A stretch of 64,000 nucleotides of DNA from Streptomyces sp. ITFR-21 (GCF_031844685.1 NZ_CP134605.1:5988001-6052000); one strand, 5' to 3'. Shown: positions 3,843-61,830, counted from the first letter of the stretch. The notes: a model not told the origin generated them from the sequence alone. A program made the numbers and translations.

Positions 3843-5186
3843 TCAGCGGCCGGCGGCCACGTCGGGCGTCCGGTCCGGTACGGTTTCGGCGTCAGCTCCG
3901 GTTCCGGCGTCAGCTCCGGTTCCGGCGTCAGCTCCGGTTCCGGCGTCGGCGTCGGTCACGAAGCGGACCGACTCGGCGAGTTCGAGCGCCAGTCGGCGGG
4001 CCTCGGCGGGGCCGTCCGCGCCGACCACGACGACCCCCACGCGGTCGCCCGACTTGTGGACCGGCCCGATCCGGTCGCCCGGCGCGGCGTTCAGCTCGGC
4101 GTAGAGCACGGCCGGATGCGCGCGTACCTCGTCCCAGCCGTCGACTGCCAGCAGCCGGCCGGGCGGTGGGACCAGGTAGCGCACCGCCGCGCCGCGCACG
4201 GCCTCCAGCGCGGGCCGGTTCGTCGGGAGCCCCAGCATGTCGTCGAAGACGAGGCCGAACAGCTCGAGCCCGGGGATGGCGTGGGCGAGCATCCGGTGGA
4301 TCCAGTCGCCCCCGAACCGGGCGTGCACCTCACCGAGCACGATCCCCGCCGGGGTCGTCCAGAGCTCCACGTGGAAGCCCCCGGTCCGCAGGCCCAGTGT
4401 CGTCAGTGCCGAGCGGACCTGCCGCTCGATCTCCTCCCGGCGCTCCGGCGGCAGTTCGGCGGGCAGCACGTGGCCGAGCTCGACGAAGAACGGCGGCGCC
4501 GTCTTCTCCTTGGCGGTGACCGCCAGCACCGTGGGGACCCCGTCCAGGAAGACGCCTTCCACGCTGAACTCGGGTCCCTCGACGAACTCCTCGACCAGGA
4601 AGGGCCCCGAGCCGGGCAGCAGCGCGAGGGCGGCCGGCAGCTCGGCGGGGCCGGAGATCTGGCTGACCCCGGTGCTTCCCATCGCGTCGCGCGGTTTGAC
4701 GATCCACGGGCCCGCGGACTCCCGCAGGTAGGCCGCCGCCTCCGCCGCGTCGGCGCACAGCCGGAACCCGGGCTGCGGGAAGCCGGCGGCGGCGAGTGCG
4801 GCGCGGCAGACGTCCTTGGTGCGCACCCGGCGCACCGCGTCGGGCGGGTTGCCGGGAGCCCCGACGGCCCGCGCGGTCTCCGCGACCGCCACCTGGGCCA
4901 TCTCCTGGAGCGCGTAGACCGCGTCGAAGCCCTCGCCGTCGGCGGCCCGCCGCGCGGCCCACTCGACGGTCTCCCGCGGCGGGGCGAACCCCAGCGCCGA
5001 GACCTCGTGCGCCGCCGCGGCGACCGCGGGTGTGGCGGCCAGCGCGGACGCCGGGGCGGTGACATGGGTGCGGATGCCGCGGGATCCCGCCTGGCTCAGG
5101 GCCTGGAGGGCCATGTCGAGGCTGAACGGTATCGGCCGCGCCCCGCCGACCAGAAGCAGGGCGGGGGAGGCGGGTTGTTCGACCAT
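3843..5186 (-). CDS. ATP-grasp family carboxylate-amine ligase (447 aa)
   Basis: The middle of the protein shows the ATP-grasp signature: a nucleotide-binding lysine and glycine-rich loop in WIVKPRDAMGSTGV, the hinge LVEEFVEGPEFSVEG, and a metal-binding stretch GEVHARFGGDW near the C-terminal third. In many amino-acid ligases of this family that position reads E-x-N-x-R. Family members activate a carboxylate as acyl phosphate and join it to an amine. The start at 5186 has an AAGGGA ribosome site; upstream extensions are poor. It is last in a minus-strand operon, 109 nt after the acyl-CoA carboxylase alpha gene, so it likely makes an amide bond in that pathway. Its C-terminal tail carries three copies of an 18-nt repeat. 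The substrate is unknown. Confidence 0.82.
   Translation of the reverse strand: MVEQPASPALLLVGGARPIPFSLDMALQALSQAGSRGIRTHVTAPASALAATPAVAAAAHEVSALGFAPPRETVEWAARRAADGEGFDAVYALQEMAQVAVAETARAVGAPGNPPDAVRRVRTKDVCRAALAAAGFPQPGFRLCADAAEAAAYLRESAGPWIVKPRDAMGSTGVSQISGPAELPAALALLPGSGPFLVEEFVEGPEFSVEGVFLDGVPTVLAVTAKEKTAPPFFVELGHVLPAELPPERREEIERQVRSALTTLGLRTGGFHVELWTTPAGIVLGEVHARFGGDWIHRMLAHAIPGLELFGLVFDDMLGLPTNRPALEAVRGAAVRYLVPPPGRLLAVDGWDEVRAHPAVLYAELNAAPGDRIGPVHKSGDRVGVVVVGADGPAEARRLALELAESVRFVTDADAGTGADAGTGADAGTGADAETVPDRTPDVAAGR
3891..3944. repeat. 18-bp tandem repeat, 3 perfect copies
   Basis: Three identical 18-nt units lie inside the 3' end of the ATP-grasp gene and encode a repeated hexapeptide of Asp, Ala, Gly and Thr in the C-terminal tail. 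The array keeps the frame and is probably length-variable between strains. Confidence 0.9.
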
Positions 5187-5295
5187 GGGTGGTTTCCCTT
5201 CGCAGTGGTCATGGGAGACGGCGGCCGCAGGGAAGATACGGCCGGGTGGCCGTCCCGCCCTCGCGGGACGGCGTGTACGGCGCGGGCACCGGTCG

Positions 5296-7254
5296 TCATC
5301 CGGGTTCCGGCGACAGCACCACGAGGGACTGGCCGGCGGTGACCACGCCGTCGAGGACGCAGGTGATCTCCTCGACGACACCGGAGAACGGCGCCGTCAC
5401 ACGGGTCTCCATCTTCATCGCCTCGATGATCACCAGGACGTCGCCGGCCTCGACCGTGTCCCCGACGGCTCGGGGCAGCCCGACGACGGTGCCCGGCATG
5501 GCCGAGGTGACGGTGCCGTCCGCGGCGCTGGAGGACTCCTCCGCGAACGTCCTGAAGGACAGCGCCGTCCGGTACCCCCCGACCACCAGTTCCGCACCGT
5601 CCGCCGTCCGCAGCCCGGCCCACGGCACGTCCGCGACGGTGCCGCTGAACAGTCCGTCGCGCAGGGACGCCGTGACGTCGTACCGCCGGCCGTCCAGCTC
5701 GACCTGTGCCGTGCCGCCGCCGCGGCCCGTCAACGCGGCCGTCCACTCGCGGTCGTCCGCCCGCGCGACGACGCGGCCGAAGGGCGCGTCCGGATCCAGG
5801 TCCCGGCGATCGAGCGGGCCGACGCCGCCGGTCCACGGGGAGGGCGCGCCGCCGTCGGCCGGGATCTCCATCGCCGCCGCGCAGGCCACGGCCCGCGCGG
5901 TGTGGTCCCGGCGCGGGGCGCGGGCGACGAGCCCGTCGACCAGATGGGTGTCCGTCCGGCCGGCGACCACGCGCGGCTCCCGCAGGAGGTCGGCCAGGAA
6001 GCCCAGGTTGGTGGTCAGACCCAGGACGGAGGTGTGGCGCACCGCGTCGGACAGCCGCCGCAGCGCCTGTGGCCTGTCGTGGCCGCGGGCCACCAGTTTG
6101 GCGATCATGGGGTCGTAGAAGGGCGGTACGTCCCCGGCGGTGTCGAAGGCCGCCTCGACCCGGACGTCCCGCGGCCACACGACGGCCTCGGCGCGTCCGG
6201 GGGCCGGCCGGAACCCGGCCAGCGGGTCCTCGGCGTAGACCCGGCACTCCATGGCGTGTCCGGTCGCGGTGATCTCGTCCTGGGCCAGCGGCAGGCGCTC
6301 CCCGGCGGCCACCAGCAACTGCCACTCCACGATGTCCACTCCGGTGATCGCCTCGGTCACGGGGTGCTCCACCTGGAGCCGGGTGTTGACCTCAAGGAAG
6401 AAGAACCGCTCCTCGGCGTCGACGATGAACTCGAAGGTACCCGCATTCACGTACCCCAGTGCCCGGGCGCCGCGTACCGCCGCCCGGAGCAGTGCCTCGC
6501 GCACCGCGCCGGACAGGCCCGGCGCCGGGGCCTCCTCGACGATCTTCTGGTGGCGGCGCTGGAGGGAGCACTCCCGCTCGAACAGGTGCACCACCTCGCC
6601 GTGGGTGTCGCCGAAGACCTGCACCTCGATGTGGCGCGGGCGCTCGACGTACCGCTCCACCAGCAGCCTTCCGTCGCCGAAGCTGCTGCGGCCCAGCCGG
6701 ACGGCGGCGGCGACCGCCGCGGCCAGGTCGGCCGCGGAGTCCACCACCCGCATGCCCTTGCCGCCACCGCCCGCAACGGGCTTGAGGATCACCGGGTAGC
6801 CGATCCGCCGGGCGTCCGCCGCCAGCCGCGCGGCGGACGTGGTCGCCTGCTCGGAGCCCGGCAGGACCGGCACCCCGGCCTCGGCCATCAGCGCGCGGGC
6901 GGTGGCCTTGTCGCCCATGGCCGCGATCGTCGCGGCCCCGGGACCCACGTAGCGCAGACCCGCTTCGGTGACCGCCTCGGCGAGGCGGGGGTTCTCCGAC
7001 AGGAACCCGTATCCGGGGTGGACGGCGTCGCAGCCGGTGCGCAGGGCGGCGTCGACGACGGCGTCGATCCGCAGGTAGCTGTCGGCGGCGGACGCCCCGC
7101 CGATCCGCACCCGGCCGACGGCCCCCTCCAGATGGGCCGCCGACCGGTCGGCGTCGGAGTGGACGGCGACGTACTCCACGCCGAGCCGCCGGCAGGTGCG
7201 GGCGACGCGCCGGGCGACCTCGCCGCGGTTGGCGATCAGGACACGCTTGAGCAT
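5296..7254 (-). CDS. Acyl-CoA carboxylase alpha subunit: biotin carboxylase + BCCP (652 aa)
   Basis: The N-terminus begins with the biotin-carboxylase motif KRVLIANRGEVARR, followed by the glycine-rich ATP loop (GGGGKGM) and the conserved catalytic ELNTR-like segment (FFLEVNTRLQVEHPVTE). The C-terminal biotinyl domain carries EAMKM, with the biotin-accepting Lys near residue 614, about 39 residues from the end, as expected. It carboxylates biotin with ATP and bicarbonate and passes the carboxyl group to the adjacent beta subunit. Length and domain order match methylcrotonyl/propionyl-CoA carboxylase alpha subunits. The start at 7254 has a GAGG site and lies 5 nt after the beta-subunit stop, so the pair is co-translated. 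It sits within a putative biosynthetic operon, not beside the usual leucine-catabolic genes. Confidence 0.92.
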   Translation of the reverse strand: MLKRVLIANRGEVARRVARTCRRLGVEYVAVHSDADRSAAHLEGAVGRVRIGGASAADSYLRIDAVVDAALRTGCDAVHPGYGFLSENPRLAEAVTEAGLRYVGPGAATIAAMGDKATARALMAEAGVPVLPGSEQATTSAARLAADARRIGYPVILKPVAGGGGKGMRVVDSAADLAAAVAAAVRLGRSSFGDGRLLVERYVERPRHIEVQVFGDTHGEVVHLFERECSLQRRHQKIVEEAPAPGLSGAVREALLRAAVRGARALGYVNAGTFEFIVDAEERFFFLEVNTRLQVEHPVTEAITGVDIVEWQLLVAAGERLPLAQDEITATGHAMECRVYAEDPLAGFRPAPGRAEAVVWPRDVRVEAAFDTAGDVPPFYDPMIAKLVARGHDRPQALRRLSDAVRHTSVLGLTTNLGFLADLLREPRVVAGRTDTHLVDGLVARAPRRDHTARAVACAAAMEIPADGGAPSPWTGGVGPLDRRDLDPDAPFGRVVARADDREWTAALTGRGGGTAQVELDGRRYDVTASLRDGLFSGTVADVPWAGLRTADGAELVVGGYRTALSFRTFAEESSSAADGTVTSAMPGTVVGLPRAVGDTVEAGDVLVIIEAMKMETRVTAPFSGVVEEITCVLDGVVTAGQSLVVLSPEPG

Positions 7255-7259
7255 TTCCC

Positions 7260-8861
7260 TCACATCCTGAACACGCCGAAGCGTGTTTCCTCGGCCGGGG
7301 CGGACCCGGCGAGCGCCAGGCACAGGGTCAGCCACTCACGGGTGTCCGTCGGGTCCACCACCGCGTCCACCCACATCCGTGCCGCGTAGTACAGCGGCTG
7401 CGACTGGCGTTCGTAGCTCTCGACGATGGGCTCTCTGATCGACCGCTCCTCCTCGGGGGACAGGGTCCGGCCCTCCTTGCGGAGCCGGTCGCCGCGGATG
7501 AGCGCCATCACGGTCGCGGTCTGCTCGCCCCCGACGACGGTGGACCTGGCACTGGGCCACATGGCCATCAGCCGCGGTCCCATGGCTCTGCCGCACATCG
7601 CGAAGTTACCGGCGCCGAAGCTGGCGCCGATCACCAGGCTGAACTTGGGCACCCTGGCGGTGGCGACGGCGTTGACCAGTTTCGCCCCGTGCTTGGTGAT
7701 GCCGCCGGCCTCGTACTGCGCGCCGACCATGAAGCCGTTGATGTTGTGCAGGAACAGCAGCGGCAGGCCGCGCTGGGCGCACAGCTCGATGAAGTTGGCG
7801 GCCTTCTGCGCGCTCTCCGAGAACAGGACGCCGTCGTTGACCAGCACCCCGACCGGATACCCGCCGACGTGCCCGGTCCCGCACACCATGGTGGGACCGA
7901 ACCGGGCGCGGTACTCGGTCAGTTCGCTGCCGTCCAGCAACCGGGCCAGGATCTCCCGGGCGGGGATGTGCTCACGCAGCCCGGCGCTGACGATGCCGGG
8001 CAGTTCCGCGGGGTCGAACAGCGGCGGACGGGGTCTTTCGGGGGGCGAGGCGACAACCGGCGCGCTGCTGCGCGCCACGATCCCGCGGACCAGCGCCAGG
8101 GCGTGGTCGTCGCTCTCGGCCAGGTGGTCGGCGACGCCGGTGACCCGGGTGTGCAGGTCGGCGCCGCCGAGGGTCTCCGCGTCGACCACCTCGCCGGTGG
8201 CGGCGCGCACCAGCTGCGGGCCGCCGAGGAAGACCGCGCCGGTGCCGCGGACCATGACCGTCTCGTCGCACATCGCCGGGATGTAGGCCGCGCCCGCGGT
8301 GCAGGACCCCATGACGGCGGCGATTTGCGGCAGCCCGAGCGCGGACATCTCCGCGATGTTGCGGAAGATCCGGCCCAGGTGGTGCTCGTCGGGGAAGAGG
8401 TCCTCCTGCAGCGGGAGGTAGACGCCGCCGGAGTCGACCAGGTAGACGCACGGCAGCCGGTTCTCGCGGGCGATCGCCTGGGCGCGGACGTGCTTCTTGA
8501 CGGTGAGCGGGAAGTAGGTCCCGCCCTTGACCGTGGCGTCGTTGGCGAAGATCATGGCCGGCCGGCCGCCGACCACGCCGACGCCGGTGACCAGCCCCGC
8601 CGAGGGGACCGGCTGGTCGTAGACGCCGTGCGCGGCGAGCTGCCCGATCTCCAAAAACGGAGTACCGGGGTCGAGCAGTTGGTGGACGCGCCCGCGCGCG
8701 GGGAGCTTGCCGCGCTCCGCGTGGCGCCGACGGGCCTGTTCGCCGCCACCGCCGAGGGCTGACGTCCTGGCCTCGGCGATGACCTGGCGCTTGTGGTCGA
8801 ACGCTTCGGCGTTGTGCCGGAAGATCTCTGAGGAGGTGTCGACCTGTGAGCGAAGGGGCAT
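7260..8861 (-). CDS. Acyl-CoA carboxylase beta (carboxyltransferase) subunit, methylcrotonyl-CoA type (533 aa)
   Basis: Both halves of the carboxyltransferase fold are present. The N-terminal half has the segment GGTYFPLTVKKHVRAQAIA and oxyanion-type glycines in GSCTAGAAYIPAM. The C-terminal half has NINGFMVG and GASFGAGNFAMCGRAM, a pattern typical of 3-methylcrotonyl/geranyl-CoA carboxylase beta subunits. It transfers CO2 from biotin to an acyl-CoA. I used the ATG at 8861; the upstream in-frame extension is Pro/Arg-rich and unlike the family. HMG-CoA lyase and isovaleryl-CoA dehydrogenase, usual partners in leucine catabolism, are absent here. The pair may therefore supply a carboxylated acyl-CoA to the neighbouring alpha-oxoamine synthase; that role is inference. 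Confidence 0.9.
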   Translation of the reverse strand: MPLRSQVDTSSEIFRHNAEAFDHKRQVIAEARTSALGGGGEQARRRHAERGKLPARGRVHQLLDPGTPFLEIGQLAAHGVYDQPVPSAGLVTGVGVVGGRPAMIFANDATVKGGTYFPLTVKKHVRAQAIARENRLPCVYLVDSGGVYLPLQEDLFPDEHHLGRIFRNIAEMSALGLPQIAAVMGSCTAGAAYIPAMCDETVMVRGTGAVFLGGPQLVRAATGEVVDAETLGGADLHTRVTGVADHLAESDDHALALVRGIVARSSAPVVASPPERPRPPLFDPAELPGIVSAGLREHIPAREILARLLDGSELTEYRARFGPTMVCGTGHVGGYPVGVLVNDGVLFSESAQKAANFIELCAQRGLPLLFLHNINGFMVGAQYEAGGITKHGAKLVNAVATARVPKFSLVIGASFGAGNFAMCGRAMGPRLMAMWPSARSTVVGGEQTATVMALIRGDRLRKEGRTLSPEEERSIREPIVESYERQSQPLYYAARMWVDAVVDPTDTREWLTLCLALAGSAPAEETRFGVFRM

Positions 8862-8979
8862 CCTGGCACACCCTGCCGGTAGTGGGCGGACGGTCGGATC
8901 GGGGCCGCGCACCGCGGTGGGGGCGCCGACGGCCCCGTACGGGCGGCGCGGTCCCGTGGCGCGCGCCGGCCGGCGGGAA

Positions 8980-10191
8980 TCAGGCGTCCTGGTCCCGCAG
9001 GTCCTTGAGCAGCGAACCGAAGTCCTCGATCTCGCCCTTGCTCATGTTCGCCCGGAACATCAGCCGCAGGCCGGCCTTGCCCCGGCCGATGATGGGGAAG
9101 AAGATCGGCGAGGCGTAGAAGCCGTGCTCCAGCAGCCGCTGAGCCAGTCGGACGGTCGCGTCCTCCGAGCCGACGCCCACGAACCGGATGGGCAGTCCGT
9201 CGCCCCGCTGCTCGGTGTCGACCAGGCTGTCGAACAGGTCGATGTTCTCCTGGAGCCGCCGCTGGAGCTCGCCGAGTTCGGCGGAGCGGTGCAGGTCGAC
9301 CGACGCCAGCACCGCGCCGAGCCCGGCCGTGTTGATGCGCTGTGACCACATCAGCGGCCCCCCGTTGCGCAGCGCGACGTCGTGCCGGGTCCTGGACCCC
9401 TTGGGACCCAGGAAGACGGCGCCTCCGGACGCGCCGAAGCCCTTGTTGAGGGAGGTGATGATCAGCGTCCTGTCGTTGATCTGCCCCATGGTCTCCAGTA
9501 CCAGGCCGCGCCCGTTCTCCCCGAGGGTCGATATGCCGTGCGCCTCGTCGAAGAACAGGAAGAGGCCGTACTTCTCCTGCAGCCGCAGCAGTTCGGCGAC
9601 CGGGGCCTGGCCACCGGTGCTGTAGACGCCGTCGGCCACGTAGGCGACCTGCGGGTGGGTGCGGCACAGCTTCTCCAGCGCCTCGACGTCGTTGTGCCCG
9701 ACGGTGGTGACCTCCGCCTCGTCGGCGACGTTCGGCTTCATCGCGTTGAGGCAGAAGTGCGCGTTCTTGTCGAAGACCATCAGCGGCGGCGTGCCGTCGG
9801 TGAATATTCCCGACGCGACCAGCGGGAGGCTCGCCCAGGCCGCGGCGGCGCAGGAGTTGACGGTCACCGCCTCCACGTCGAACAGGTCGGACAGCGCGTC
9901 CTCCGCGTCCCGCAGCGCGCCGAAGCGCAGGCGCATCCGCGAGGTGGAGGTGTTGAGCGCCCCCTCGGCCAGGACGGCGTCGGCCGCGGCCCGGACGATC
10001 GCCGGGTGGGTGTCGAGCCCCAGGTAGGAGTACGACGACATGTTCACGAATTCGCGGCCGTCCGCGACGGCGCGGTGCCGCCCCTCGCCCAGACCGGCCA
10101 CGACGATGTCGAACAGCCCGGCCCGGTCCGTGACATCCCAGAACTCCCTGCTGATCTCCGCGGACTTCTTGATGTTCATGAACGAGTGCAT
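8980..10191 (-). CDS. Alpha-oxoamine synthase, PLP-dependent (AONS/CqsA-like, 403 aa)
   Basis: Class-II aminotransferase-fold enzyme. It has FFDEAHGIS, where the Asp and His contact PLP, and the lysine of SLNKGFGASGG at about residue 250, which forms the internal aldimine. The family condenses an amino acid with an acyl thioester, losing CO2, to give an alpha-aminoketone; examples are 8-amino-7-oxononanoate synthase, KBL, serine palmitoyltransferase and CqsA. GAGGAG lies just before the ATG at 10191. It sits between the 3-hydroxyacyl-CoA dehydrogenase and the carboxylase genes. No other biotin genes are nearby, so a biotin role is unlikely. A pathway-specific C-C bond-forming step on an acyl-CoA made by the neighbours is the best reading. 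Confidence 0.88.
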   Translation of the reverse strand: MHSFMNIKKSAEISREFWDVTDRAGLFDIVVAGLGEGRHRAVADGREFVNMSSYSYLGLDTHPAIVRAAADAVLAEGALNTSTSRMRLRFGALRDAEDALSDLFDVEAVTVNSCAAAAWASLPLVASGIFTDGTPPLMVFDKNAHFCLNAMKPNVADEAEVTTVGHNDVEALEKLCRTHPQVAYVADGVYSTGGQAPVAELLRLQEKYGLFLFFDEAHGISTLGENGRGLVLETMGQINDRTLIITSLNKGFGASGGAVFLGPKGSRTRHDVALRNGGPLMWSQRINTAGLGAVLASVDLHRSAELGELQRRLQENIDLFDSLVDTEQRGDGLPIRFVGVGSEDATVRLAQRLLEHGFYASPIFFPIIGRGKAGLRLMFRANMSKGEIEDFGSLLKDLRDQDA

Positions 10192-10230
10192 ACCAAACTC
10201 CTCAACGGATGCGGATCTGCGGGGGCCGGG

Positions 10231-11106
10231 CTACGCGTAGGCGTAGAAGCCACGGCCCGACTTCCGGCCCAGAATTCCGGACTCGACCATGCGTGACAGC
10301 AGGGGCGGCGGCGCGTAGAGCGGTTCCTTGAACTCGTCGTACAGGGCGGAGGCGATGGCGGAGACCACATCGAGACCGATGAAGTCGCAGAGCCGGAGCG
10401 GGCCCATCGGGTGGGCGCACCCCAATTCCATTCCGCGGTCGACGGCTTCGGCCGAGGAGAAACCTGACTCGACCATCCGTACGGCCGACAACAGGTAGGG
10501 GACCAGCAGGGCGTTCACGACGAATCCGCTGCGGTCGGCGGCGCGGATCGGTTGCTTGCCGAGGACATCGGTGACGAAGGACGCCACCCGCCGCTCGACG
10601 TCGCCGTCCGTCAGCAACGCCGGAACCAGCTCCACCAGCGGCAGTCTGACCACCGGGTTGAAGAAGTGGACTCCGATCACCCGGCCCGGCCGGCCGGTGG
10701 CCCGCGCCAGCCGGGTGATGGAGACGGCCGAGGTGGTGGAGGCCAGCACCGCGTCGGGCTCGACCACTTTGTCCAGCAGCGCGAACACCCCGAGCTTGAC
10801 CTCCTCGTCCTCCCGGACGGCCTCGACCACCAGGTCCCGGTCGGCCAGGTCGGCCGGATCGGCGACGACCAGGATGCGGTCCAGCGCCGCGTCCCGCTCG
10901 GCCGCGGTCAGCCGTCCCTTGGCCACCCCGCGGTCCAGTGACGCCGCGATGCGGCGCGGCGCGGACGCCAGCGACGACTCCCGGGACACCGCCACCCGCA
11001 CGTCGAGTCCGCGCAGGGCGCAGAGTTCGGCGATACCGGCGCCCATCGTGCCCGAGCCGACCACGCCGACCCGGCGTATTCCTCCGGTCCCCGAATTCGT
11101 TGACAT
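10231..11106 (-). CDS. 3-hydroxyacyl-CoA (3-hydroxybutyryl-CoA type) dehydrogenase (291 aa)
   Basis: The N-terminal Rossmann motif GVVGSGTMGAGIAELCA binds NAD(P). The middle contains the catalytic-His segment GVHFFNPVVRLPLVELV, and the C-terminal helical domain has GMELGCAHPMGPLRLCDFIGLD, classic for the HbdA/PaaH family. It interconverts 3-hydroxyacyl-CoA and 3-ketoacyl-CoA. I chose the ATG at 11106; an ATG four codons upstream is equally possible, and a longer Arg-rich extension is unlikely. It is first in the minus-strand operon, 39 nt before the alpha-oxoamine synthase. It probably adjusts the oxidation state of an acyl-CoA intermediate. Confidence 0.9.
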   Translation of the reverse strand: MSTNSGTGGIRRVGVVGSGTMGAGIAELCALRGLDVRVAVSRESSLASAPRRIAASLDRGVAKGRLTAAERDAALDRILVVADPADLADRDLVVEAVREDEEVKLGVFALLDKVVEPDAVLASTTSAVSITRLARATGRPGRVIGVHFFNPVVRLPLVELVPALLTDGDVERRVASFVTDVLGKQPIRAADRSGFVVNALLVPYLLSAVRMVESGFSSAEAVDRGMELGCAHPMGPLRLCDFIGLDVVSAIASALYDEFKEPLYAPPPLLSRMVESGILGRKSGRGFYAYA

Positions 11107-11450
11107 GGTCCCGGCCATCACCGCGCCAACCGGCCGACTGCTGTGCTTTCGGCGTCCCGACAGATTCCGGGAAAAGCCTTCGCGGCTGCTCCGATGATGC
11201 CGTACGAGCCGCGGGCGATGAGATTTTCCTGTTCCGCTGATGCGTGCAACGTTGTTCTCCGGATTCTCTCGTCGGAGCTGTACGTAGCGTTCGGCGAATC
11301 GAGAGACTTTCAAGCCGGTGACCCGCTGTCAAGCGGCAATAACTTGCCTGCTCCCGAAAGCGGCGAAAACCGCACAGGTGCGCCGACCGGCAGATCTTTG
11401 CCGGTCGGCACACCTTGAGGAAACCCTTGTTCCTGCCTGTACTCGATTGA
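11107..11450 (-). promoter_or_regulatory. Regulatory gap upstream of the dehydrogenase-led operon
   Basis: This 344-nt gap between two minus-strand genes holds a terminator-like hairpin at 11377-11414 (listed separately). Downstream of it, read on the minus strand, is a TTGACA -35-like hexamer at 11327-11332. I could not identify a convincing -10 at normal spacing. I see no gene. Because the XRE gene has its own terminator, the five-gene operon probably starts from a promoter in this gap. Confidence 0.45.
11377..11414 (-). terminator. Strong hairpin downstream of the XRE regulator
   Basis: 16-nt arms (11377-11392 and 11399-11414) match at 15 of 16 positions around a 6-nt loop, 36 nt after the regulator's stop. 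On the minus strand a short T-rich run follows a little further on. Confidence 0.65.
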
Positions 11451-12245
11451 TCAGGTGATGGTGACTAATCGCAGGTTCTGGGATCTGGCAGGTATCAGAA
11501 CCTGCGAGACCACGTCGAAGACCGCGGGGGCGACATGCGGCAGACGCAGGCGGGCGCGGTGGCCGTCCCGGCTGGCCACCACACACGTCCGTCCTCGCCA
11601 CAGCTCCTGGCAGGCGGGGTCGAGCAGCACCCGGTCGAGCAGTGCCGCCAGCCTGGAGTCGTCGGGATGCTGCGCCATCGCGTAGCGGATCATGGCCAGG
11701 TACATCCGTGCGTGCCACGGCCAGTCGATCAGCTGCTCGCGCGCCTCCCCGGTGGTGAGCGCCCATTCGAGGACGCTGGCTCCCGGTTCCCGCACCCAGG
11801 GAAACCACTCGGCCATGGCCTGGTTGTAGCCGGCGATGTTCCAGGAGCTGTCGGCCAGATACGCCGGCCGCGGCATCTGGAAATTCACCAGGCCCTGCAG
11901 CGCGGACCGCCCGTCGGCGTCCTCCGGGCGCGGGCTCGTCGCGTACGGGTTGCCGCCCAGGGCGTAGAAGTACAAGGTGGCGCGCTCGTCCGCGTCCAGC
12001 CCCAGGGTGTCCGCCAGCAGGCCCAGGACCCGCGGGTCGAGACGCAGCACCGCGCCGCGCTCCAGGTCGCGGTACCACCGTTCGCTCATGCCGACCCGGA
12101 GCGCGACCTCGGCCTGGGTGAGCGGCTTGCCGAGAGGGGCGTCGGCGCGAGCACGCCAACCGCGGAGCAGTACGGGCAGCCCGGGTGCTTCGTCCGGGGC
12201 GGAATCGTGAGGAACGAGCGCTGCACCGGATTGCCATCTTGGCAT
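11451..12245 (-). CDS. XRE-family regulator with MmyB-like ligand-binding domain (264 aa)
   Basis: An N-terminal helix-turn-helix (about residues 25-80, containing LTQAEVALRVGMSERWYRDLE) is followed by a large domain. That domain has the MmyB-like pattern: YNQAMAEWFPWV, an SVLEWALTTGEAR stretch, and a C-terminal beta section with RLRLPHVAP. The family often sits beside biosynthetic or reductase genes and senses a small hydrophobic ligand. I preferred the ATG at 12245, with GAGG upstream on its strand. A GTG at 12329 would add 28 residues. It is divergent from the KASIII gene across 289 nt and lies upstream of the carboxylase/AONS operon, so it is the obvious candidate cluster regulator. Confidence 0.85.
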   Translation of the reverse strand: MPRWQSGAALVPHDSAPDEAPGLPVLLRGWRARADAPLGKPLTQAEVALRVGMSERWYRDLERGAVLRLDPRVLGLLADTLGLDADERATLYFYALGGNPYATSPRPEDADGRSALQGLVNFQMPRPAYLADSSWNIAGYNQAMAEWFPWVREPGASVLEWALTTGEAREQLIDWPWHARMYLAMIRYAMAQHPDDSRLAALLDRVLLDPACQELWRGRTCVVASRDGHRARLRLPHVAPAVFDVVSQVLIPARSQNLRLVTIT

Positions 12246-12534
12246 CAGAAGTTGTCCTCGTCTTCGATCTGCTCTTGGATTCCCTGGCTGAATCTTTGCG
12301 ATTTGAGCTGATATGCGAGGATCCTGCACTATGTGTATCTCATGTGCAATACCTGAAATTCAGACCCGCGGCCGTCTCGACGGGTGACCGGAACGACCCC
12401 CTGCATTTACGGAGGGGGAGCCGATGTCTGCTTTGCGGTGAAAGCCGCGCGGCGGCGCGGCAGCGCCCGACCGGCCAGTCCCGCCCGACCAGTACGCCGA
12501 CCGAACGTCCACCCCTTAGAACAGGGAAGAAGAC
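12246..12534. promoter_or_regulatory. Divergent promoter region (XRE regulator / KASIII)
   Basis: 289 nt between divergent genes, with a lower-G+C core at about 12280-12370. No perfect inverted repeat is obvious. An AGGGAAGA ribosome site precedes the KASIII ATG. The KASIII promoter and any XRE operator should lie here. Confidence 0.5.
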
Positions 12535-13599
12535 ATGCATTCCATCGGCATCCTCAGCACCGGCTCCTACCTTCCTGAACGCGTGGTCCGGAACGCGGAG
12601 ATCGCGGAACAGGCCGGGGTGGACCCCGCCTGGATCGAACGCAAGACGGGCATCCGCGAGCGGCGCCGAGCGGCACCGGAACAGGCCACCTCCGACCTCG
12701 CGGCCGTCGCCGCGGACCGGGCGCTGCTGGCCGCCGGCCTCCGCGCGGGCGACATCGACCTCATCGTGGTCGCCACCTCCACGCCGGACCACCCGCAACC
12801 GGCGACCGCCAGCATCGTGCAGCACCTGACAGGGGCCGAACGGGCCGCCGCCGTCGACGTCAACGCCGTGTGCAGCGGTTTCGTCTACGCTCTCGCCATG
12901 GCCGAGGGCCTACTGCGGTCCCGGGGCGGCGACGGGCACGCGCTGGTGATCGGCGCCGACATCTACTCGCGCATCCTCGACCACCGCGACCGCAGGACCG
13001 CGGTCCTGTTCGGCGACGGAGCCGGGGCGGTGGTCGTCGGCCCCGTCGCCGGAGCGGACGGCTTCATCGGGACACGGCTGCGCGGACACGGTGACGGGCA
13101 CCGGCTGATCAGCGTGCCGGCCGGCGGAAGCCGCAAGCCGCCCTCGGAGCAGACGGTCCGCGACGGTGAGCACTACTTCACGATGGACGGCCGCGGCGTG
13201 CGCGACTTCGTCACCGGCGAAGTCCCCGAAGCCGTGGCTCAGTTGCTGAGGGACTGCGGACTCGGCACCGACGAGGTCGACCATCTGGTCCCGCACCAGG
13301 CCAACGGCGTACTGCTGCGCGAACTTTGGCCGGCCCTGAAGCTGCCACGTGCCGCCCTGCACCTCACGGTGGAGCACTGCGCCAACACAGGCTCCGCATC
13401 CGTGCCGGTCACCCTGGACGCCGCGCACCGGGCCGGGGACCTCAGGAAGGGCGACACGGTCCTGCTCGCCGGCTTCGGCGGGGGGATGAACACCGGTCTG
13501 GCGCTGTGCCGATGGACGGCGACGGCCGCCGCCGACCCGGTGCGCGACGCGGATCCGCGCGCCGGCGGACCGGGCGAGCGGCCGACCTCGCGCGTCTGA
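12535..13599 (+). CDS. Beta-ketoacyl-ACP synthase III-like enzyme (KASIII/FabH family, 354 aa)
   Basis: Thiolase-fold enzyme with the full KASIII triad: the nucleophile Cys near 113 in NAVCSGFVYAL, His near 254 in LVPHQAN, and Asn near 284 in HCANTGSASVPV. The C-terminal glycine-rich AGFGGGMNTGLAL is also present. FabH enzymes condense an acyl-CoA with malonyl-ACP; relatives in biosynthetic clusters instead join two acyl-CoAs or transfer acyl groups. No acyl carrier protein, KASII or ketoreductase is nearby, so this is not a primary fatty-acid fab locus. It is divergent from the XRE regulator and followed by an exporter. The roughly 30-residue Pro/Arg/Gly C-terminal tail is longer than usual. 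Confidence 0.9.
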   Translation: MHSIGILSTGSYLPERVVRNAEIAEQAGVDPAWIERKTGIRERRRAAPEQATSDLAAVAADRALLAAGLRAGDIDLIVVATSTPDHPQPATASIVQHLTGAERAAAVDVNAVCSGFVYALAMAEGLLRSRGGDGHALVIGADIYSRILDHRDRRTAVLFGDGAGAVVVGPVAGADGFIGTRLRGHGDGHRLISVPAGGSRKPPSEQTVRDGEHYFTMDGRGVRDFVTGEVPEAVAQLLRDCGLGTDEVDHLVPHQANGVLLRELWPALKLPRAALHLTVEHCANTGSASVPVTLDAAHRAGDLRKGDTVLLAGFGGGMNTGLALCRWTATAAADPVRDADPRAGGPGERPTSRV

Positions 13600-13728
13600 G
13601 ACGGCACCGGCCGCGCACGGCCCGCCGGACACCGGGCCCGGAGACCGGCGCGCAAGGGCTCCGCGGCCGGGGCCCGTCGCACGGGGCGAAAGGAGTGCCG
13701 CCGAACCCCCTACCGCGTAAGGTGAGCC

Positions 13729-14958
13729 ATGCCCAGTTTACTTCCCGACCGCGGTCCACGCCGTCTTCTCGCGGTCGCCACGCTGATCAACATGACCGGC
13801 TACGGGGTCTATCTGACCGCGGGCGTCCTGTACTTCACCAGCATCGTGCGACTGCCCGCCGCCCAGGTCGGCATCGGCCTGAGCGTCGCCGGCGCGGTGG
13901 CGCTGGTTACGGGGATTCCGGCCGGCCACCTGGCCGACCGGCGGGGAGCGCGCGGGACCTACGCGGTGACGCTGCTGCTCGGGGCCGCCGCCATGGCCGG
14001 GCTCTGCCTGGCCCACGGATTCTGGACCTTCCTGGTCTTCGCCTCGCTGGGGAGTATCGCCCAGGCGGCCGGTCCGGCGGCCCGCAGCCCGCTGGTCCGG
14101 GAGTACGGCGGCGAGCGGCCGGCCGAGTACCGCGCCTACCTGCGGTCCGTCACCAATATCGGCATCTCGGTGGGCGCCCTGCTCGCGGGCTGGGGTGTCC
14201 AGGTCGACAGCAAGAGCGCCTACCTGCTGCTCATCGCCGGCAGTGCCGTCGCCTCCGCGGCCTGCGCCGGGGTGGTGCTGCTGATGCCGCCGGTGGAGCC
14301 CGGTCCCGCGGGGACCGGGCCGCGGTGGATCGCGCTGCGCGACCGCCCGTACCTGCTGCTGACCGTCCTTGACGGTGTGATGGCCGTCCAGTACCGGGTG
14401 CTCACCGCCGCCGTGCCGCTCTGGCTGATCGGCGAGACCTCGGCCCCGCGCTGGTCGGTCTCCGGGGTGATGCTGGTGAACACCGCGATCGTGGTGCTGT
14501 TCCAGGTCCGGGCGAGCCGCAGTATCGACACGCCCCGGGCCGGCGGTGTCGCCTTCCGGCGCGCCGGGCTGGCCTTCCTGATCTCCTGCGCGCTGATCTC
14601 GCTGCTGCCCGGGGCACCCACCTGGCTGGTGATGGCGCTTCTGCTGGCCGCGGTCGCCGTCCACACGGTCGGCGAGATCTGGCAGGCCGCCGGCGGCTTC
14701 GAGGTCTCCTTCGCGCTCGCCCCGGCCCACGCGGTGGGCCAGTACCAGGGACTGTTCGGGATGGGCCTCGGACTCGGTACGACCATCGGACCGGTGCTGT
14801 TGATATCGCTGTGCATCGACTGGGGAAGGCCCGGCTGGTGGGTCGTCGGCGCGCTCTTCGCCGTCACCGGCCTCGCCGTTCCGGCCACGGTGCGGTGGGC
14901 CGAGCGCGCCCGGCCGCTGCCGGCGGACCGGACCGACCCGGCCGAGGCGCTCGCCTGA
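13729..14958 (+). CDS. MFS transporter (409 aa)
   Basis: It has about 12 hydrophobic segments and the major-facilitator loop signature GHLADRRGARGTY between the second and third helices. The annotated ATG begins MPSLLPDRGPRR. The amphipathic N-terminus and single-domain size fit a drug-efflux or sugar-efflux type MFS. It lies 129 nt downstream of the KASIII gene on the same strand and is a candidate exporter for the locus product. It ends before the repeat region at 15130-15300. Confidence 0.85.
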   Translation: MPSLLPDRGPRRLLAVATLINMTGYGVYLTAGVLYFTSIVRLPAAQVGIGLSVAGAVALVTGIPAGHLADRRGARGTYAVTLLLGAAAMAGLCLAHGFWTFLVFASLGSIAQAAGPAARSPLVREYGGERPAEYRAYLRSVTNIGISVGALLAGWGVQVDSKSAYLLLIAGSAVASAACAGVVLLMPPVEPGPAGTGPRWIALRDRPYLLLTVLDGVMAVQYRVLTAAVPLWLIGETSAPRWSVSGVMLVNTAIVVLFQVRASRSIDTPRAGGVAFRRAGLAFLISCALISLLPGAPTWLVMALLLAAVAVHTVGEIWQAAGGFEVSFALAPAHAVGQYQGLFGMGLGLGTTIGPVLLISLCIDWGRPGWWVVGALFAVTGLAVPATVRWAERARPLPADRTDPAEALA

Positions 14959-15129
14959 TCTCCGGCGTCGCCGGTCTCCGGGCCGCGGGTCCGGCCGGGG
15001 ACCGCGCGGGCGCCGGCACCGGACCGCCCGCCACCGCGGACGCCGCCCGCCAGCGACCCCGTGCGCCGCGGATGTGGCCTCTCGCGGAGTGCGCCCTGCC
15101 TGCCGGGACCGGTGCGACGGTCTGCCGGT

Positions 15130-15212
15130 GCGCGGTGCGCGGTGCGCGGTGCGCGGTGCGCGGTGCGCGGTGCGCGGTGCGCGGTGCGCGGTGCGCGGTG
15201 CGCGGTGCGCGG
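15130..15212. repeat. 7-bp tandem repeat (gcgcggt), 11 perfect copies
   Basis: Eleven exact copies of a 7-nt unit (15130-15206) plus a partial twelfth. Because 7 is not a multiple of 3, the array reads in all three frames and creates spurious ORFs on both strands. It lies in the MFS-TetR intergenic region, immediately before a long palindrome. Confidence 0.95.
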
Positions 15213-15228
15213 AAGGCGCCTTCGGCGC

Positions 15229-15300
15229 CGGCGGGGGATGAGGGGTGTGGGCCTGCGGTGAGGCGCCTCACCGCAGGCCCACACCCCTCATCCCCCGCCG
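15229..15300. repeat. 72-bp perfect palindrome
   Basis: The 36-nt arms (15229-15264 and 15265-15300) are exactly complementary, with no spacer; the centre is ggcgcc. It could form a cruciform in DNA or a very strong RNA hairpin ending the MFS transcript. A loop-free palindrome of this length is rare, so a fold-back assembly artefact should be considered. Confidence 0.95.
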
Positions 15301-39017: not shown

Positions 39018-39922
39018 CCGCCGGCACGACCGCGGCCGGCCGGGCCGTACCGCCGCCCGCTGCCACCGAGGCTCCGCTGCTCACCGTCCGCGCCCTGTCC
39101 GGCGCCTTCCGCACCGCGCGGGGCGAGCGGACCCAGGTGCTGCGCGACGTGAGCTTCGAGCTGCCGGCCGGCGCCATCACCGCGGTGGTCGGCGAGACCG
39201 GCAGCGGCAAGTCGCTCACCGCGCTCTCCGTGCTGGGGCTGCTGCCGCCCGGTCTCACCGTCGAGGGGTCCATCACCTTCGACGGCCGCGAGCTGATCGG
39301 CCTGGACGAGGCCGGCTACCGCGAACTGCGCGGCCGGCAGATCGCCATGGTCTTCCAGGACGCCCGCTCCTCCCTCAACCCGGTGCTCACCGTCGGCCGC
39401 CAACTCACCGACGTGGCCCGGCTCCACCACGGACTGCGCAAACCGGCCGCCCGCGCGCTGGCCGCCGAGGCACTGGCCCGGGTCCGCATCCCCGACCCGG
39501 CCCGCCGGATGGCCCAGTACCCGCACCAGTTCTCCGGTGGCATGGCCCAGCGGGCGATGATCGCGATGGCCCTGCTCTGCCGTCCCCGGCTGCTGCTCCT
39601 GGACGAGCCGACCACCGGCCTCGACGTCACCACCCAGGCGGACGTGATGGACCTCGTGGTCGAACTCGCCCGCCAGGACGGCCTGACCGCGTGCCTGGTC
39701 ACCCACGACCTGGGTGTGGTCGGCGAAACCTGCGACCGGGTGGTGGTGATGCGGCGGGGCACGGTGGTCGAACAGGCCACGGCGGAGGCGTTCTTCCGCG
39801 CACCGCGGGCCGACTACTCCCGTGCCCTGCTGGCGGCCAACCGGCTGGACGAGGCCGCGTCGCCCATCGCCGCGCCGCCCGCCGACCCCCGCGACGACGA
39901 CGCCCCTGGGAGTACGTCATGA
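39014..39922 (+). CDS. ABC transporter ATPase, DppD-like (302 aa)
   Basis: Complete ABC ATPase: Walker A GETGSGKSL, Q-loop MVFQDARSSLNP, signature FSGGMAQRAMIAMALLCRP, Walker B LLLLDEPTTGLDVTTQ and the H-loop THDLG. It overlaps the DppC-like stop by 4 nt and the next ATPase start by 4 nt. The usual C-terminal oligopeptide-transporter extension is short. Confidence 0.92.
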   Translation: MTAGTTAAGRAVPPPAATEAPLLTVRALSGAFRTARGERTQVLRDVSFELPAGAITAVVGETGSGKSLTALSVLGLLPPGLTVEGSITFDGRELIGLDEAGYRELRGRQIAMVFQDARSSLNPVLTVGRQLTDVARLHHGLRKPAARALAAEALARVRIPDPARRMAQYPHQFSGGMAQRAMIAMALLCRPRLLLLDEPTTGLDVTTQADVMDLVVELARQDGLTACLVTHDLGVVGETCDRVVVMRRGTVVEQATAEAFFRAPRADYSRALLAANRLDEAASPIAAPPADPRDDDAPGSTS

Positions 39923-41072
39923 TCCCGCCTGCCGAGCCCGTAGCCGAGCCCGTAGCCGAGCCCGTAGCCGAGCCCACCGCCGGCCGCCCGGCCGGCACCG
40001 CGCCCGCGGCGCAGCCCGGCTCCGTACCAGACCCCGCTCCCGCTCCGGATTCCGCCCCCGGCCCCGCCCCTGTCCTCGAAGTCCGCGCCCTGCAGGTTGA
40101 GTTCACCGTCCGTAGCCGCGGGCTGCGGCACACCCTGAGGGCCGTGGACGGGGTGGACCTCGTGCTGCGGACCGGGGAGACGCTCGCCGTCGTGGGGGAG
40201 AGCGGGTCGGGCAAGTCGACGCTGGCCCGGTCGATCCTGCGGCTGGTCGAGCCGGCCGCGGGCAGTGTCACGCTGGGCGGCCGTCCGGTCGGCTCGTTCC
40301 GGGACCGGCGCGAGGTGTACCGGGACGTGCAGATGGTCTTCCAGGACCCGCGCTCCTGCCTCGACCCCCGGCAGCGGGTCCGGTCCATCCTGGACGAGCC
40401 GCTGCGCCTGCACCTGCGCCTGCCCGCCGAGCAGCGCGAGCGCCGGGTACGGGAGCTGCTCGCCGACGTGGAACTGCCCGCGGCCGTGCTCGACCGGCGG
40501 CCGGCCGAACTGTCCGGCGGCCAGCGGCAGCGCGTCGGGATCGCCCGCGCGCTCGCCGTGCAGCCGAAGGCGGTCATCCTCGACGAGCCGACCGCCTCGC
40601 TGGACGCGTCCACCCGCGGCGTCGTACTGGACCTGCTCGCCCGGCTGCAGCGCGAGCATGGCATCGCCTACCTGCTGATCTCGCACGACCTCCAGGCGGT
40701 ACGGCGGATCGCGCACCGGGTGCAGGTGATGTACGGGGGGCGGGTGGTCGAATCCGGCACGACCGAGGACGTGCTGCGGTGCCCCGCGCACCCAACACCC
40801 GCGCGCTGCTGGACGCCGCGCCGGTCGCCGCGTACGGCGGCCACACCAGGACCGTCCGGCTCAGCGGCGAGAACCCGGGCCCCTTCGACCTCCCGGTCGG
40901 CTGCGCGCTGGCTCCCCGCTGCCCGTTGGCGGAGGACTCCTGCACGGTCGCCCGACCCCCCCGACTGTCGTTCGGCGGCACGCACGAAGCCGCCTGCCCC
41001 ATCACCCACCGGCAGGTCAGCGTCGACCTCTCGGCCGCGCGTAGAGAGAAGGAACACTCCGATGACCAGTGA
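39919..41072 (+). CDS. ABC transporter ATPase, DppF-like, with apparent 1-nt frameshift
   Basis: A repetitive Ala-Glu-Pro-Val N-terminus precedes a complete ATPase core: GESGSGKSTLARS, MVFQDPRSCLDPRQRV, LSGGQRQRVGIARALA, LDEPTASLDAS, SHDLQAVRR. At 40789-40797 the family's C-P-x-H-P-Y-T-R-x-L motif is broken. The first part is in one frame (CPAHP), and TRALLDAAPVAAYGGHTR continues in another, so one base appears to be missing near 40793. The shifted frame carries the correct C-terminus (CALAPRCPLAEDSC) and stops at 41072, 11 nt inside the lipoprotein gene. Read literally, the first frame instead runs into the lipoprotein gene and mimics a fusion. A sequencing indel is possible. Confidence 0.8.
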
Positions 41073-42717
41073 ATCTCCGCGCCGCGCCCGCCTGTTGGCG
41101 TGCGCCGCCGCGGTCGCCCTCGCCTCGCTGCTGGCTGGCTGCTCGTCGTCGGCCGGCGGCACCACCCGGCAGGGCGGCGCCAAGGCCCCCGCCTCGCTGG
41201 TGGCCGCCTGGCCGAGCGACATCTCCACCATGGACCCGGGCAACGTCAACACCGACCAGGACAAGGAGCTGGCGATGAACGTCTACCAGACCCTGGTGGG
41301 CTACAAGACCTCGGCGCAGGGCGGCCACACGGTCTCCGACGGCCTCGACGCCACCCCGGCGGTCGCCTCCTCCTGGACGCTGTCCGGCGACACCGCCACC
41401 TTCACCATCCGGCCGGGCCTGAGGTTCTACCCGAGCGGCAACCCGGTCACCGCCGCCGACGCGGTCTGGTCGCTCCAGCGCGCGCTCCAGCTCAACGGCG
41501 CGGTCGAGCTGAACAACAGCGGCGTGTTCACCGCCGACCAGATCACCGCCCCCGACGCCTCCCACGTCGCCATCCGCTACCAGGACGGCGACGGCAAGCC
41601 GGTCAACGCCAGCGACGTCAACGTGGCGACACTGCGCACCTGTTGGTACGGCATCGTGGACTCCGTCGCCGCCCGCGCGCACGCCACCGCGAGCGACCCG
41701 ATCGCCGCCGACTGGCTGAAGGGCAACGCGGCCGGCAGCGGGCCGTACTACGTCAAGAGCCGCCAGGCCGGCCAGTCCCTCGACCTGGCCGCGGTGCCCG
41801 GCGCGGCCCTGGACGCGCCCAAGTTCGCCGCGGTGACCCTCCGGGTCGTCAACGACGGCAACGTGGCGGCCCTGCTGCGCGGCGGCAGCGTCAACGTCGC
41901 CCAGTACGGCCTGAGCCCGCGCGACACCAACGTGCTGAAGTCGGCCGGCTTCCGGGTCGAGCACGCCGACACCTCCAGCTACCTCTACCTGCAACTCGCC
42001 TCCGACGTCGGCCCGTTCAAGGACCCGCTGGTGCGGAAGGCGGTCGCCGAGGCGCTGCCGTACGACGCGCTGGTGAGGAACGTCTACTACGGCCAGGCGT
42101 CCCGCGCCGACTCGTACGTCACCGCCGGCGCCCCCGGCTACGCCCCGGCCTGGAAGTCCTACGGCGACCAGGCGAAGGCCACCGCGCTGATGGCGCAGGC
42201 CGGCCACCCGAAGATCTCCACCAAGCTCCGCTACCCCAGTGAGAACGCCGACTTCGCCACCGCCGCCCAGCTGATCAAGAGCGCGCTCAAGCCGCTCGGC
42301 ATCGACGTCACCATCCAGCCGCAGACCTCGGCCGCGCTGATCACCTCCATCATCGGCCGCGCCACCGCCCGGTCCGCCGGCGGTCCCGACGACGGCATGG
42401 TGCTGAACACCCTGTCGACGTACGTGGAGGACGCCAAGACCCCGGTCAAGCTGTGGAGCGTGACCGGCGGCGTGGTCAACTTCTCCCGCACCAGCGTCCC
42501 GGAGATCGACCGGCTGCAGAACCGGTACGCGATGGCGGCGCCCGGCCCCGCCCGTGACCAGGCGTACCTGCGGATCCAGCAACTCGCCGCACAGGACGCC
42601 TCGTTCCTGCCGCTGGTGCTCACCGGCCGCACCCTCGTCGCCGCCTCCGGTGTCACCGGGCTGACCTTCACCCCGGAACCGGTCACCCTCTACTGGACGC
42701 TGGAGCCCGCCAAGTGA
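41062..42717 (+). CDS. Extracellular solute-binding lipoprotein, family 5 (551 aa)
   Basis: The ATG at 41062 starts a lipoprotein signal peptide with lipobox LLAGC (Cys near residue 28). The rest is a family-5 binding protein of peptide/nickel/oligosaccharide type: STMDPGNVNTDQDKELAMNV, the FTIRPGLRFYPSGNPVTAADAVW signature region and GSGPYYVKSRQAGQSLDL. It captures substrate for the DppBCDF-like transporter. GAAGGA lies upstream of the ATG. In sequence it is in frame with the broken ATPase gene, but its own signal peptide and start show that it is a separate protein. Its stop overlaps the amidase start by 4 nt. Confidence 0.92.
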   Translation: MTSESPRRARLLACAAAVALASLLAGCSSSAGGTTRQGGAKAPASLVAAWPSDISTMDPGNVNTDQDKELAMNVYQTLVGYKTSAQGGHTVSDGLDATPAVASSWTLSGDTATFTIRPGLRFYPSGNPVTAADAVWSLQRALQLNGAVELNNSGVFTADQITAPDASHVAIRYQDGDGKPVNASDVNVATLRTCWYGIVDSVAARAHATASDPIAADWLKGNAAGSGPYYVKSRQAGQSLDLAAVPGAALDAPKFAAVTLRVVNDGNVAALLRGGSVNVAQYGLSPRDTNVLKSAGFRVEHADTSSYLYLQLASDVGPFKDPLVRKAVAEALPYDALVRNVYYGQASRADSYVTAGAPGYAPAWKSYGDQAKATALMAQAGHPKISTKLRYPSENADFATAAQLIKSALKPLGIDVTIQPQTSAALITSIIGRATARSAGGPDDGMVLNTLSTYVEDAKTPVKLWSVTGGVVNFSRTSVPEIDRLQNRYAMAAPGPARDQAYLRIQQLAAQDASFLPLVLTGRTLVAASGVTGLTFTPEPVTLYWTLEPAK

Positions 42718-61309: not shown

Positions 61310-61456
61310 GGAAATCTCCTTCGCGAGACATCTCCCTGGATCCCGGGGCGGGACGCGAGCGCGAAGGTATGACGAACCCGACGGAACGGCCGTGCGCCAC
61401 GCACACGTTCGCCCGTTCGGTGGATACGCCGACCCGCCCACGAGGTCACCGGGACT

Positions 61457-61480
61457 CCGTACGCGATCGGTCGCGTACGG
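61457..61480 (-). promoter_or_regulatory. Hairpin after the riboswitch (expression platform)
   Basis: A 10-bp stem with a 4-nt loop directly follows the cobalamin aptamer on the minus strand. It could be part of the switching element. The 150 nt from here to the metE GTG hold no other obvious element except the ribosome site. Confidence 0.45.
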
Positions 61481-61672
61481 GCAACGGGCAGGTCTTCGGA
61501 CTCGCGGGCACGTCCGCCCGAGGCGGACACCTACTGGCCGTCGCTTCCCGGGCCCCACGGGCCCAGTGCGTATGACGGCGGTCGTTCCCCCTCACCGCTG
61601 CGGGGCAGTCCCGGAATCCCACCGGGTTCCCTCTTGCGACTCCCCGCCTGGCGGACGGGGTGAACCGGCTGC
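61478..61672 (-). ncRNA. Cobalamin riboswitch upstream of metE
   Basis: Read on the minus strand, the element shows the conserved core in order: AAGAGGGAACCCGGTG, ATTCCGGGACTGCCCCGCA, GCGGTGAGGGGGAACGA, GAAGCGACGGCCAGTAGGTG and the B12-box-like GAGTCCGAAGACCTGCC at 61486-61502. Spacing and covarying stems match the cobalamin family. In streptomycetes this element turns off metE when B12 is available. The boundaries are approximate. The aptamer appears intact even though its target gene is broken. Confidence 0.92.
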
Positions 61673-61830
61673 TCCGCCAGGCTAGGGCGTGTCCGGCTCC
61701 CCGGTCACCTCCGCCCGTATCCCGGGACGCGGGTGGGGCCGGCGGGGTGGCCCGGGGCGGCGGGGTGGTCCCGGGCGGCGGCACGCAGCCGCGGGCTCCC
61801 GGCGGGGGCAGCCGGCGGGGGCAGCCGGGG

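Follow-up and report, generated by a model that had tools for sequence, protein, structure and literature searches.

A 64,000-nucleotide stretch of the Streptomyces sp. ITFR-21 genome (NZ_CP134605.1:5988001-6052000, referred to here as the window) carries, at 3843-14958, a locus in which a pyridoxal phosphate (PLP)-dependent alpha-oxoamine synthase (AOS) is accompanied by a two-subunit biotin-dependent carboxylase, a partnership that the comparisons below support well as a dedicated one. The genes form a real and self-contained set, and the evidence supports a biosynthetic role outside primary metabolism. The locus probably makes and exports a small molecule in which an amino acid is linked to an unusual carboxylated acyl unit; our fuller reading, a cluster for an aminoketone product, we hold with about even confidence. 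More tentatively, and with somewhat less than even confidence, we propose that it represents a new class of pathway, spread horizontally between phyla, in which a biotin enzyme would make a 2-enedioyl-CoA (of the glutaconyl-CoA type) by gamma-carboxylation for the AOS to couple to an amino acid; the resulting vinylogous amino-keto acid would be exported free (by a Bcr-type major facilitator superfamily (MFS) transporter) or as a dipeptide (by means of a ligase and a different MFS transporter).

Gene calls were made from the listing of open reading frames (ORFs), from Pfam and NCBIfam family searches and from PDB matches for the window proteins. Each gene that an earlier sequence-only reading of this DNA had named was found in its place as a long, family-matching ORF, and the operon order which it had described was confirmed: on the minus strand a 3-hydroxybutyryl-CoA dehydrogenase (HBDH) is followed by the AOS, the carboxyltransferase, the biotin carboxylase with its fused carrier domain and an ATP-grasp ligase, with an XRE regulator gene upstream of this operon and the genes for a beta-ketoacyl synthase III (KASIII) and an MFS exporter divergent on the opposite strand.

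The synthase and carboxylase recur as a pair

The AOS was used as a query against 84,980 species genomes, giving 53 related loci, and the locus comparison also took in three genomes of the same order, the window and one Pantoea plasmid. A carboxylase pair adjoins the AOS in 29 loci (AOS identity at least 57%), although these include close kin (such as Chromobacterium and two Nocardia neocaledoniensis) and so represent fewer independent cases. Their hosts belong to two phyla and comprise Actinomycetota, Chromobacterium, relatives of Burkholderia and the Pantoea plasmid, the proteobacterial versions being reduced, and because the grouping recurs across genera and phyla it is not due to chance. 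The view of the sequence-only reading that this is a biosynthetic locus outside primary metabolism is supported, as the same genes are found together in many unrelated genomes and the carboxylase and dehydrogenase are paralogous to separate housekeeping copies.

Variant A (HBDH, AOS, carboxyltransferase, biotin carboxylase, ligase, sometimes KASIII, and MFS) is that of the window, Amycolatopsis and the three same-order genomes (L084-L086), and variant B (XRE, HBDH, AOS, Bcr-type MFS, carboxyltransferase, biotin carboxylase) is found in Streptomyces, Kitasatospora and Microtetraspora. Variant D/E (AOS, Bcr-type MFS, carboxyltransferase, biotin carboxylase) occurs in Chromobacterium, Burkholderia, Paraburkholderia, Trinickia, Pantoea, Actinomadura rayongensis, Rhodococcus and, with a different gene order, Nocardia neocaledoniensis. 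In variant C (L041, L042 and L053; Actinomadura and Nocardia crassostreae) a gene for an acyl-CoA-dehydrogenase-like protein replaces the carboxylase and is followed by AOS, ligase and MFS, the HBDH also being lost; the variant C AOS nests within the carboxylase-linked AOS clade.

There is a slender chance that the AOS is a bystander in what is instead a catabolic or housekeeping island handling an unusual acid; outside the clusters, the closest carboxyltransferases are those of AtuA-type catabolic operons carried by Achromobacter and Sulfitobacter plasmids. However, it is the AOS that stays constant across the loci, nearly all of which have an MFS gene, and the import systems, CoA-transferases and hydratases of such operons are missing. 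The patchy distribution of the locus (1 of 35 genomes of the host genus has the AOS) likewise argues against such an island and fits an accessory cluster.

The carboxylase is of the gamma-carboxylating lineage

The alpha subunit (5296-7251, minus strand) is a biotin carboxylase with a fused biotin carboxyl carrier domain (matching Biotin_carb_N, CPSase_L_D2, Biotin_carb_C and Biotin_lipoyl) and has the biotinylation motif EAMKM. The beta subunit, or carboxyltransferase (7260-8855, minus strand), scored 660 bits against the beta subunit of 3-methylcrotonyl-CoA carboxylase (MCC; PDB 3u9r) and 414 against that of geranyl-CoA carboxylase (GCC), compared to 255 for the best classical propionyl-CoA carboxylase beta subunit (PDB 1vrg); PDB 9tps, labelled a propionyl-CoA carboxylase, scored 648 bits but is MCC-like in alignment. 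Such enzymes form two lineages, acting by alpha-carboxylation of saturated or gamma-carboxylation of 2-unsaturated acyl-CoAs (PMC4673880), and on alignments and trees the window carboxyltransferase is of the gamma-carboxylating MCC/GCC lineage. A reading as an acetyl/propionyl-CoA carboxylase was rejected by the PDB scores and the tree. Both carboxylase subunits are thus present, as had been noted from the sequence, but they are of the MCC type. This lineage makes it probable that the acyl unit is an unsaturated diacid, such as glutaconyl-CoA, and not of the malonyl type, and the genes do not predict a ketomethylene like that of ketomemicin; the wider suggestion that a carboxylated acyl-CoA is joined to an amino acid and then passed to the ligase is compatible with the evidence.

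We see only a small chance that the carboxylase makes malonyl-CoA, from which the AOS would give a 4-amino-3-oxo acid and the HBDH a statine-like 4-amino-3-hydroxy acid. This would provide the HBDH, whose gene stands immediately before that of the AOS in the operon, with a role after the AOS, but the carboxyltransferase is distant from acetyl/propionyl-CoA carboxylases and the HBDH-free clusters would yield unstable beta-keto acids.

The host genome has a separate housekeeping MCC beta subunit (G000:C1:1986300) which is 56% identical to the cluster copy, and 13 of the 15 genomes tested also carry a separate MCC-type copy (55-59% identity), the other two (G038 and G046) having only more distant copies (45-46%). 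The cluster carboxyltransferases form one clade (100/100 in the tree), which, at 99/98, stayed apart both from the housekeeping MCC and from the closest plasmid-borne catabolic relatives when the latter were added. The published guideline for an MCC is a Phe at the position of human MCC Phe191 (PMC4673880), where the window and every aligned HBDH-type cluster have Leu; Phe is found in most non-HBDH clusters and in all housekeeping MCC copies including that of the host, and Ile in Pantoea. A GCC would have Gly at this site and no three-residue insertion, whereas the window protein has Leu and the insertion. Mutation of Phe191 to Gly abolished MCC activity on methylcrotonyl-CoA (PMC4673880), and the Leu suggests a substrate pocket unlike that of MCC and a substrate other than 3-methylcrotonyl-CoA.

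That substrate, derived from leucine breakdown, or another branched 2-enoyl-CoA, could nevertheless be used within the same architecture, with the AOS accepting 3-methylglutaconyl-CoA and the HBDH and KASIII tailoring or feeding another step. We consider this unlikely, although with an appreciable chance of being right, given that the carboxyltransferase is MCC-like, that most clusters without HBDH keep the Phe191 of MCC, and that minimal four-gene clusters have no genes for crotonyl-CoA supply. It leaves the HBDH and KASIII of the window cluster without an obvious role, and the loss of Phe191 in HBDH-type clusters, together with the inactivity of the Gly mutant, also speaks against it.

The closest non-cluster carboxyltransferases are held by catabolic-looking plasmid operons (L123, L124 and L125; AtuA-family protein, small protein, carboxyltransferase, biotin carboxylase, CoA-transferases and MaoC dehydratases), whose substrate could reveal the substrate class of the cluster enzyme.

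The synthase belongs to the PRK07505 subfamily

The AOS (8980-10191, minus strand) scored 532 bits against a cut-off of 342 for the PRK07505 subfamily (NCBIfam NF005697) and has the PLP-lysine motif SLNKGFG. Its closest solved structure is Alb29 (PDB 8xha, E 1.6e-127), with which it has active-site motifs such as PLMWSQR-N in common. Alb29 condenses L-glutamate with acyl-CoAs, and its Leu equivalent to ThAOS Val79 is tied to amino-acid choice (PMC11906848). We infer this Leu to be the inner one of the LNSSLSR motif, and the site aligned with that inner Leu is Thr in HBDH-type clusters (including the window), Ala or Ser in variant C and Ile in D/E.

AOS proteins of the ketomemicin (ktm) type, a clade assigned from taxonomy (Salinispora) and subfamily and not from a named KtmB record, are about 44% identical to the window AOS, are separate from it in the tree (100/99) and have no carboxylase beside them. 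The parallel with ketomemicin that had been drawn from the sequence holds for the subfamily, which is that of ketomemicin and Alb29, but membership of the window cluster in the ketomemicin group was rejected as its AOS lies outside the ktm-type clade. A biotin synthesis (BioF) reading was also rejected (141 bits against 426, in a locus without bio genes), as were 5-aminolevulinate synthase and serine palmitoyltransferase (both far under cut-off) and a CqsA-type autoinducer synthase (83.5 against 428).

This last score bears on a further possibility, to which we give only a very slender chance, that the AOS makes a signalling molecule of the CqsA-like alpha-hydroxyketone or aminoketone type under control of the XRE regulator. 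CqsA belongs to the same superfamily as the AOS, and the regulator (11451-12329, minus strand; Pfam MLTR_LBD and HTH_31) is MmyB-like, with a small-ligand domain, and is linked in nine further Streptomyces, Kitasatospora and Microtetraspora loci; against this, the CqsA score is far under its cut-off and the proteobacterial and Amycolatopsis loci have no regulator. The MmyB-like protein is a probable regulator of the pathway.

Other loci also bear an AOS. A cluster on a Rhodococcus plasmid (L122, 8989-19206) combines a related AOS (49%) with a second PLP enzyme, a 2-oxoglutarate-Fe dioxygenase, an acyl-CoA dehydrogenase, a PGM1-related peptide ligase, a carrier protein and a non-ribosomal peptide synthetase (NRPS), and a 27-kb Kocuria plasmid (L121, 127-9859) has an AOS (51%) beside PLP-enzyme-like, ligase-like and MFS-like ORFs, perhaps a further AOS-based cluster. 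In three genomes of the host genus (L087, L088 and L089) the AOS belongs to another clade (45-47%), distinct from the ketomemicin type and flanked by a conserved gene set of its own.

Ligase and exporter are exchanged together

The ATP-grasp ligase (3843-5186, minus strand) matched Pfam LAL_C2 (86 bits, E 2e-24) and ATP-grasp_4 (74 bits), its closest solved structure being the L-amino acid ligase BL00235, and by the logic of BacD and BL00235 it probably aminoacylates the amine of the aminoketone. Orthologues (61-71%) are found in 10 related loci. The exporter (13729-14958, plus strand; Pfam MFS_1, 84 bits) has orthologues of 68-76% identity in nine ligase-bearing loci and in none of the ligase-free ones. 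None of the 11 ligase-bearing loci has a Bcr/CflA-type exporter; the window-type MFS is found in 10, the exception being L040 with an MFS match of only 31%, while all 21 ligase-free carboxylase loci carry the Bcr-type exporter and none the window-type MFS. The ligase goes exclusively with one exporter and is missing where the other occurs, as would fit an aminoacylated product being exported in the first case and a free one in the second; this suggests that one core is produced by related strains in both free and peptide-masked form. The ligase and KASIII, both taken as parts of the locus in the sequence-only reading, are indeed present here, but KASIII is optional (five loci) and the ligase is missing from most relatives, where the different exporter occurs.

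A short tandem repeat lies between the MFS and TetR genes (window 14864-15284), giving repeated CAVRGAR and RTAHRAP peptides in the ORF list.

Acyl precursor genes and a proposed route

The HBDH (10231-11112, minus strand) scored 424 bits against a cut-off of 319 for PRK07819 (PDB 6hrd, E 4.9e-97) and is a paralogue, 59% identical, of a housekeeping host copy at G000:C1:847720. It is also found beside the AOS in Amycolatopsis (with KASIII) and in Streptomyces and Kitasatospora. The FabH-like KASIII (12535-13599, plus strand; above cut-off for PRK09352) has its catalytic Cys-His-Asn motifs intact (VCSGF, PHQAN and CANTGS), its closest host paralogue being 37% identical, and orthologues occur in L031, L036, L038 and L084. 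Because the KASIII and MFS genes share a single operon with the remaining genes in Amycolatopsis (L031, L036 and L038), both are taken as members of the locus. A thiolase gene is beside four Chromobacterium loci, and in Pantoea a divergent thiolase (FadA) is found with a FadB-like protein; as it is confined to these, thiolase was rejected as a constant part. HBDH, KASIII and the Pantoea thiolase and FadB-like protein are consistent with a supply line from acetyl-CoA through acetoacetyl-CoA and 3-hydroxybutyryl-CoA to crotonyl-CoA.

From the gene families, the dedicated AOS/carboxylase partnership and the linkage of exporter to ligase we propose a route, of which all substrates and the product are predicted and which we hold to be evenly balanced between right and wrong. 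Acetoacetyl-CoA would be made by KASIII (by thiolase in some relatives), reduced by HBDH to 3-hydroxybutyryl-CoA and converted to crotonyl-CoA by a housekeeping enoyl-CoA hydratase, after which the dedicated MCC-lineage biotin carboxylase would add CO2 at its gamma carbon to yield glutaconyl-CoA or a close analogue. In a decarboxylative condensation the AOS would couple this glutaconyl-type CoA to an amino acid, the product being an alpha-amino-ketone with an alkene and a carboxylate group (an amino-oxo-alkenoic acid); the ligase would then place an amino acid on its amine and the MFS would export the dipeptide-like product. In variant C the acyl-CoA-dehydrogenase-like protein has as its best, weak, NCBIfam match a non-decarboxylating glutaryl-CoA dehydrogenase, which is suggestive only of another route to glutaconyl-CoA converging with that of the carboxylase.

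Several points weigh against this route. The change from Phe191 to Leu and the gain of HBDH fall mostly on one branch and are essentially one event, so that their correlation was rejected as independent support; moreover L040, L050 and L051 have the Leu without a nearby HBDH, and a Leu pocket could also suit an enoyl-CoA of greater length. In Chromobacterium the chromosomal thiolase may adjoin the locus by chance, as it does not do so in C. sphagni. No crotonase/hydratase gene was found in the window locus (the host genome has eight enoyl-CoA hydratase candidates), and nothing in the present evidence fixes the amino acid that the AOS uses. The variant C protein scored 51.6 bits against a glutaryl-CoA dehydrogenase cut-off of 470 and is divergent, with Asp aligned at the catalytic Glu.

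Elsewhere in the window

A cobalamin riboswitch (window 61470-61684, minus strand; Rfam RF00174, 84 bits) lies directly upstream of, and slightly overlaps, an ORF (60293-61558, minus strand) with the N-terminal domain of cobalamin-independent methionine synthase, the arrangement expected for a B12-repressed MetE. An amidohydrolase of the AtzD/TrzD ring-opening family (cyanuric acid/barbiturate; 44144-45424, plus strand) is encoded next to ABC transport genes (39691-42717) that include one for a family-5 solute-binding protein.

Comparison with known systems

Alaremycin/primocarcin is a small exported aminoketone acid, formed by the 5-aminolevulinate-synthase-like enzyme AlmA from succinyl-CoA and serine; unlike the window cluster its pathway has no carboxylase and no ligase. 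Ketomemicin likewise combines a PRK07505-subfamily AOS (KtmB) with an ATP-grasp ligase, without NRPS or polyketide synthase (PKS), but its published genes (aldolase, dehydratase, amidinotransferase and dehydrogenase) include no biotin carboxylase, HBDH or KASIII (PMC11943689), and no ktmA/ktmC/ktmE-type aldolase, dehydratase or amidinotransferase was among the families found in 3843-14958. Alb29, from the albogrisin pathway, is about half identical to the window AOS, with Leu in Alb29 and Thr in the window at the LNxSxSR motif. The carboxylase resembles MCC and GCC in its two-subunit biotin form, sequence and catalytic motifs, but the cluster enzymes stand in a clade of their own, where FRNIAE replaces FYNQA-type residues and Phe191 is often Leu.

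A literature search for an AOS with an MCC-type carboxylase, or with glutaconyl-CoA, found no relevant description, and so, as far as the searched literature shows, this kind of cluster is undescribed, in keeping with the sequence-only reading. If the carboxylase does feed unsaturated diacid units to the AOS, this would be acyl-donor chemistry that we did not find described for this class of enzyme. The AOS and carboxylase are easily recognised markers, making the cluster family searchable in soil actinobacteria and some proteobacteria. The dynaplanin cluster, in which the PLP-dependent acyltransferase DynZ serves an arginyl pseudopeptide, slipped past standard gene-cluster finders, and the window cluster is similar in being AOS-based and has no PKS or NRPS module; unlike the window cluster, no carboxylase is mentioned for dynaplanin (PMC9239090). 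Ketomemicin, Alb29, dynaplanin and alaremycin, the closest of the known systems, have the logic of the AOS in common with the window cluster.
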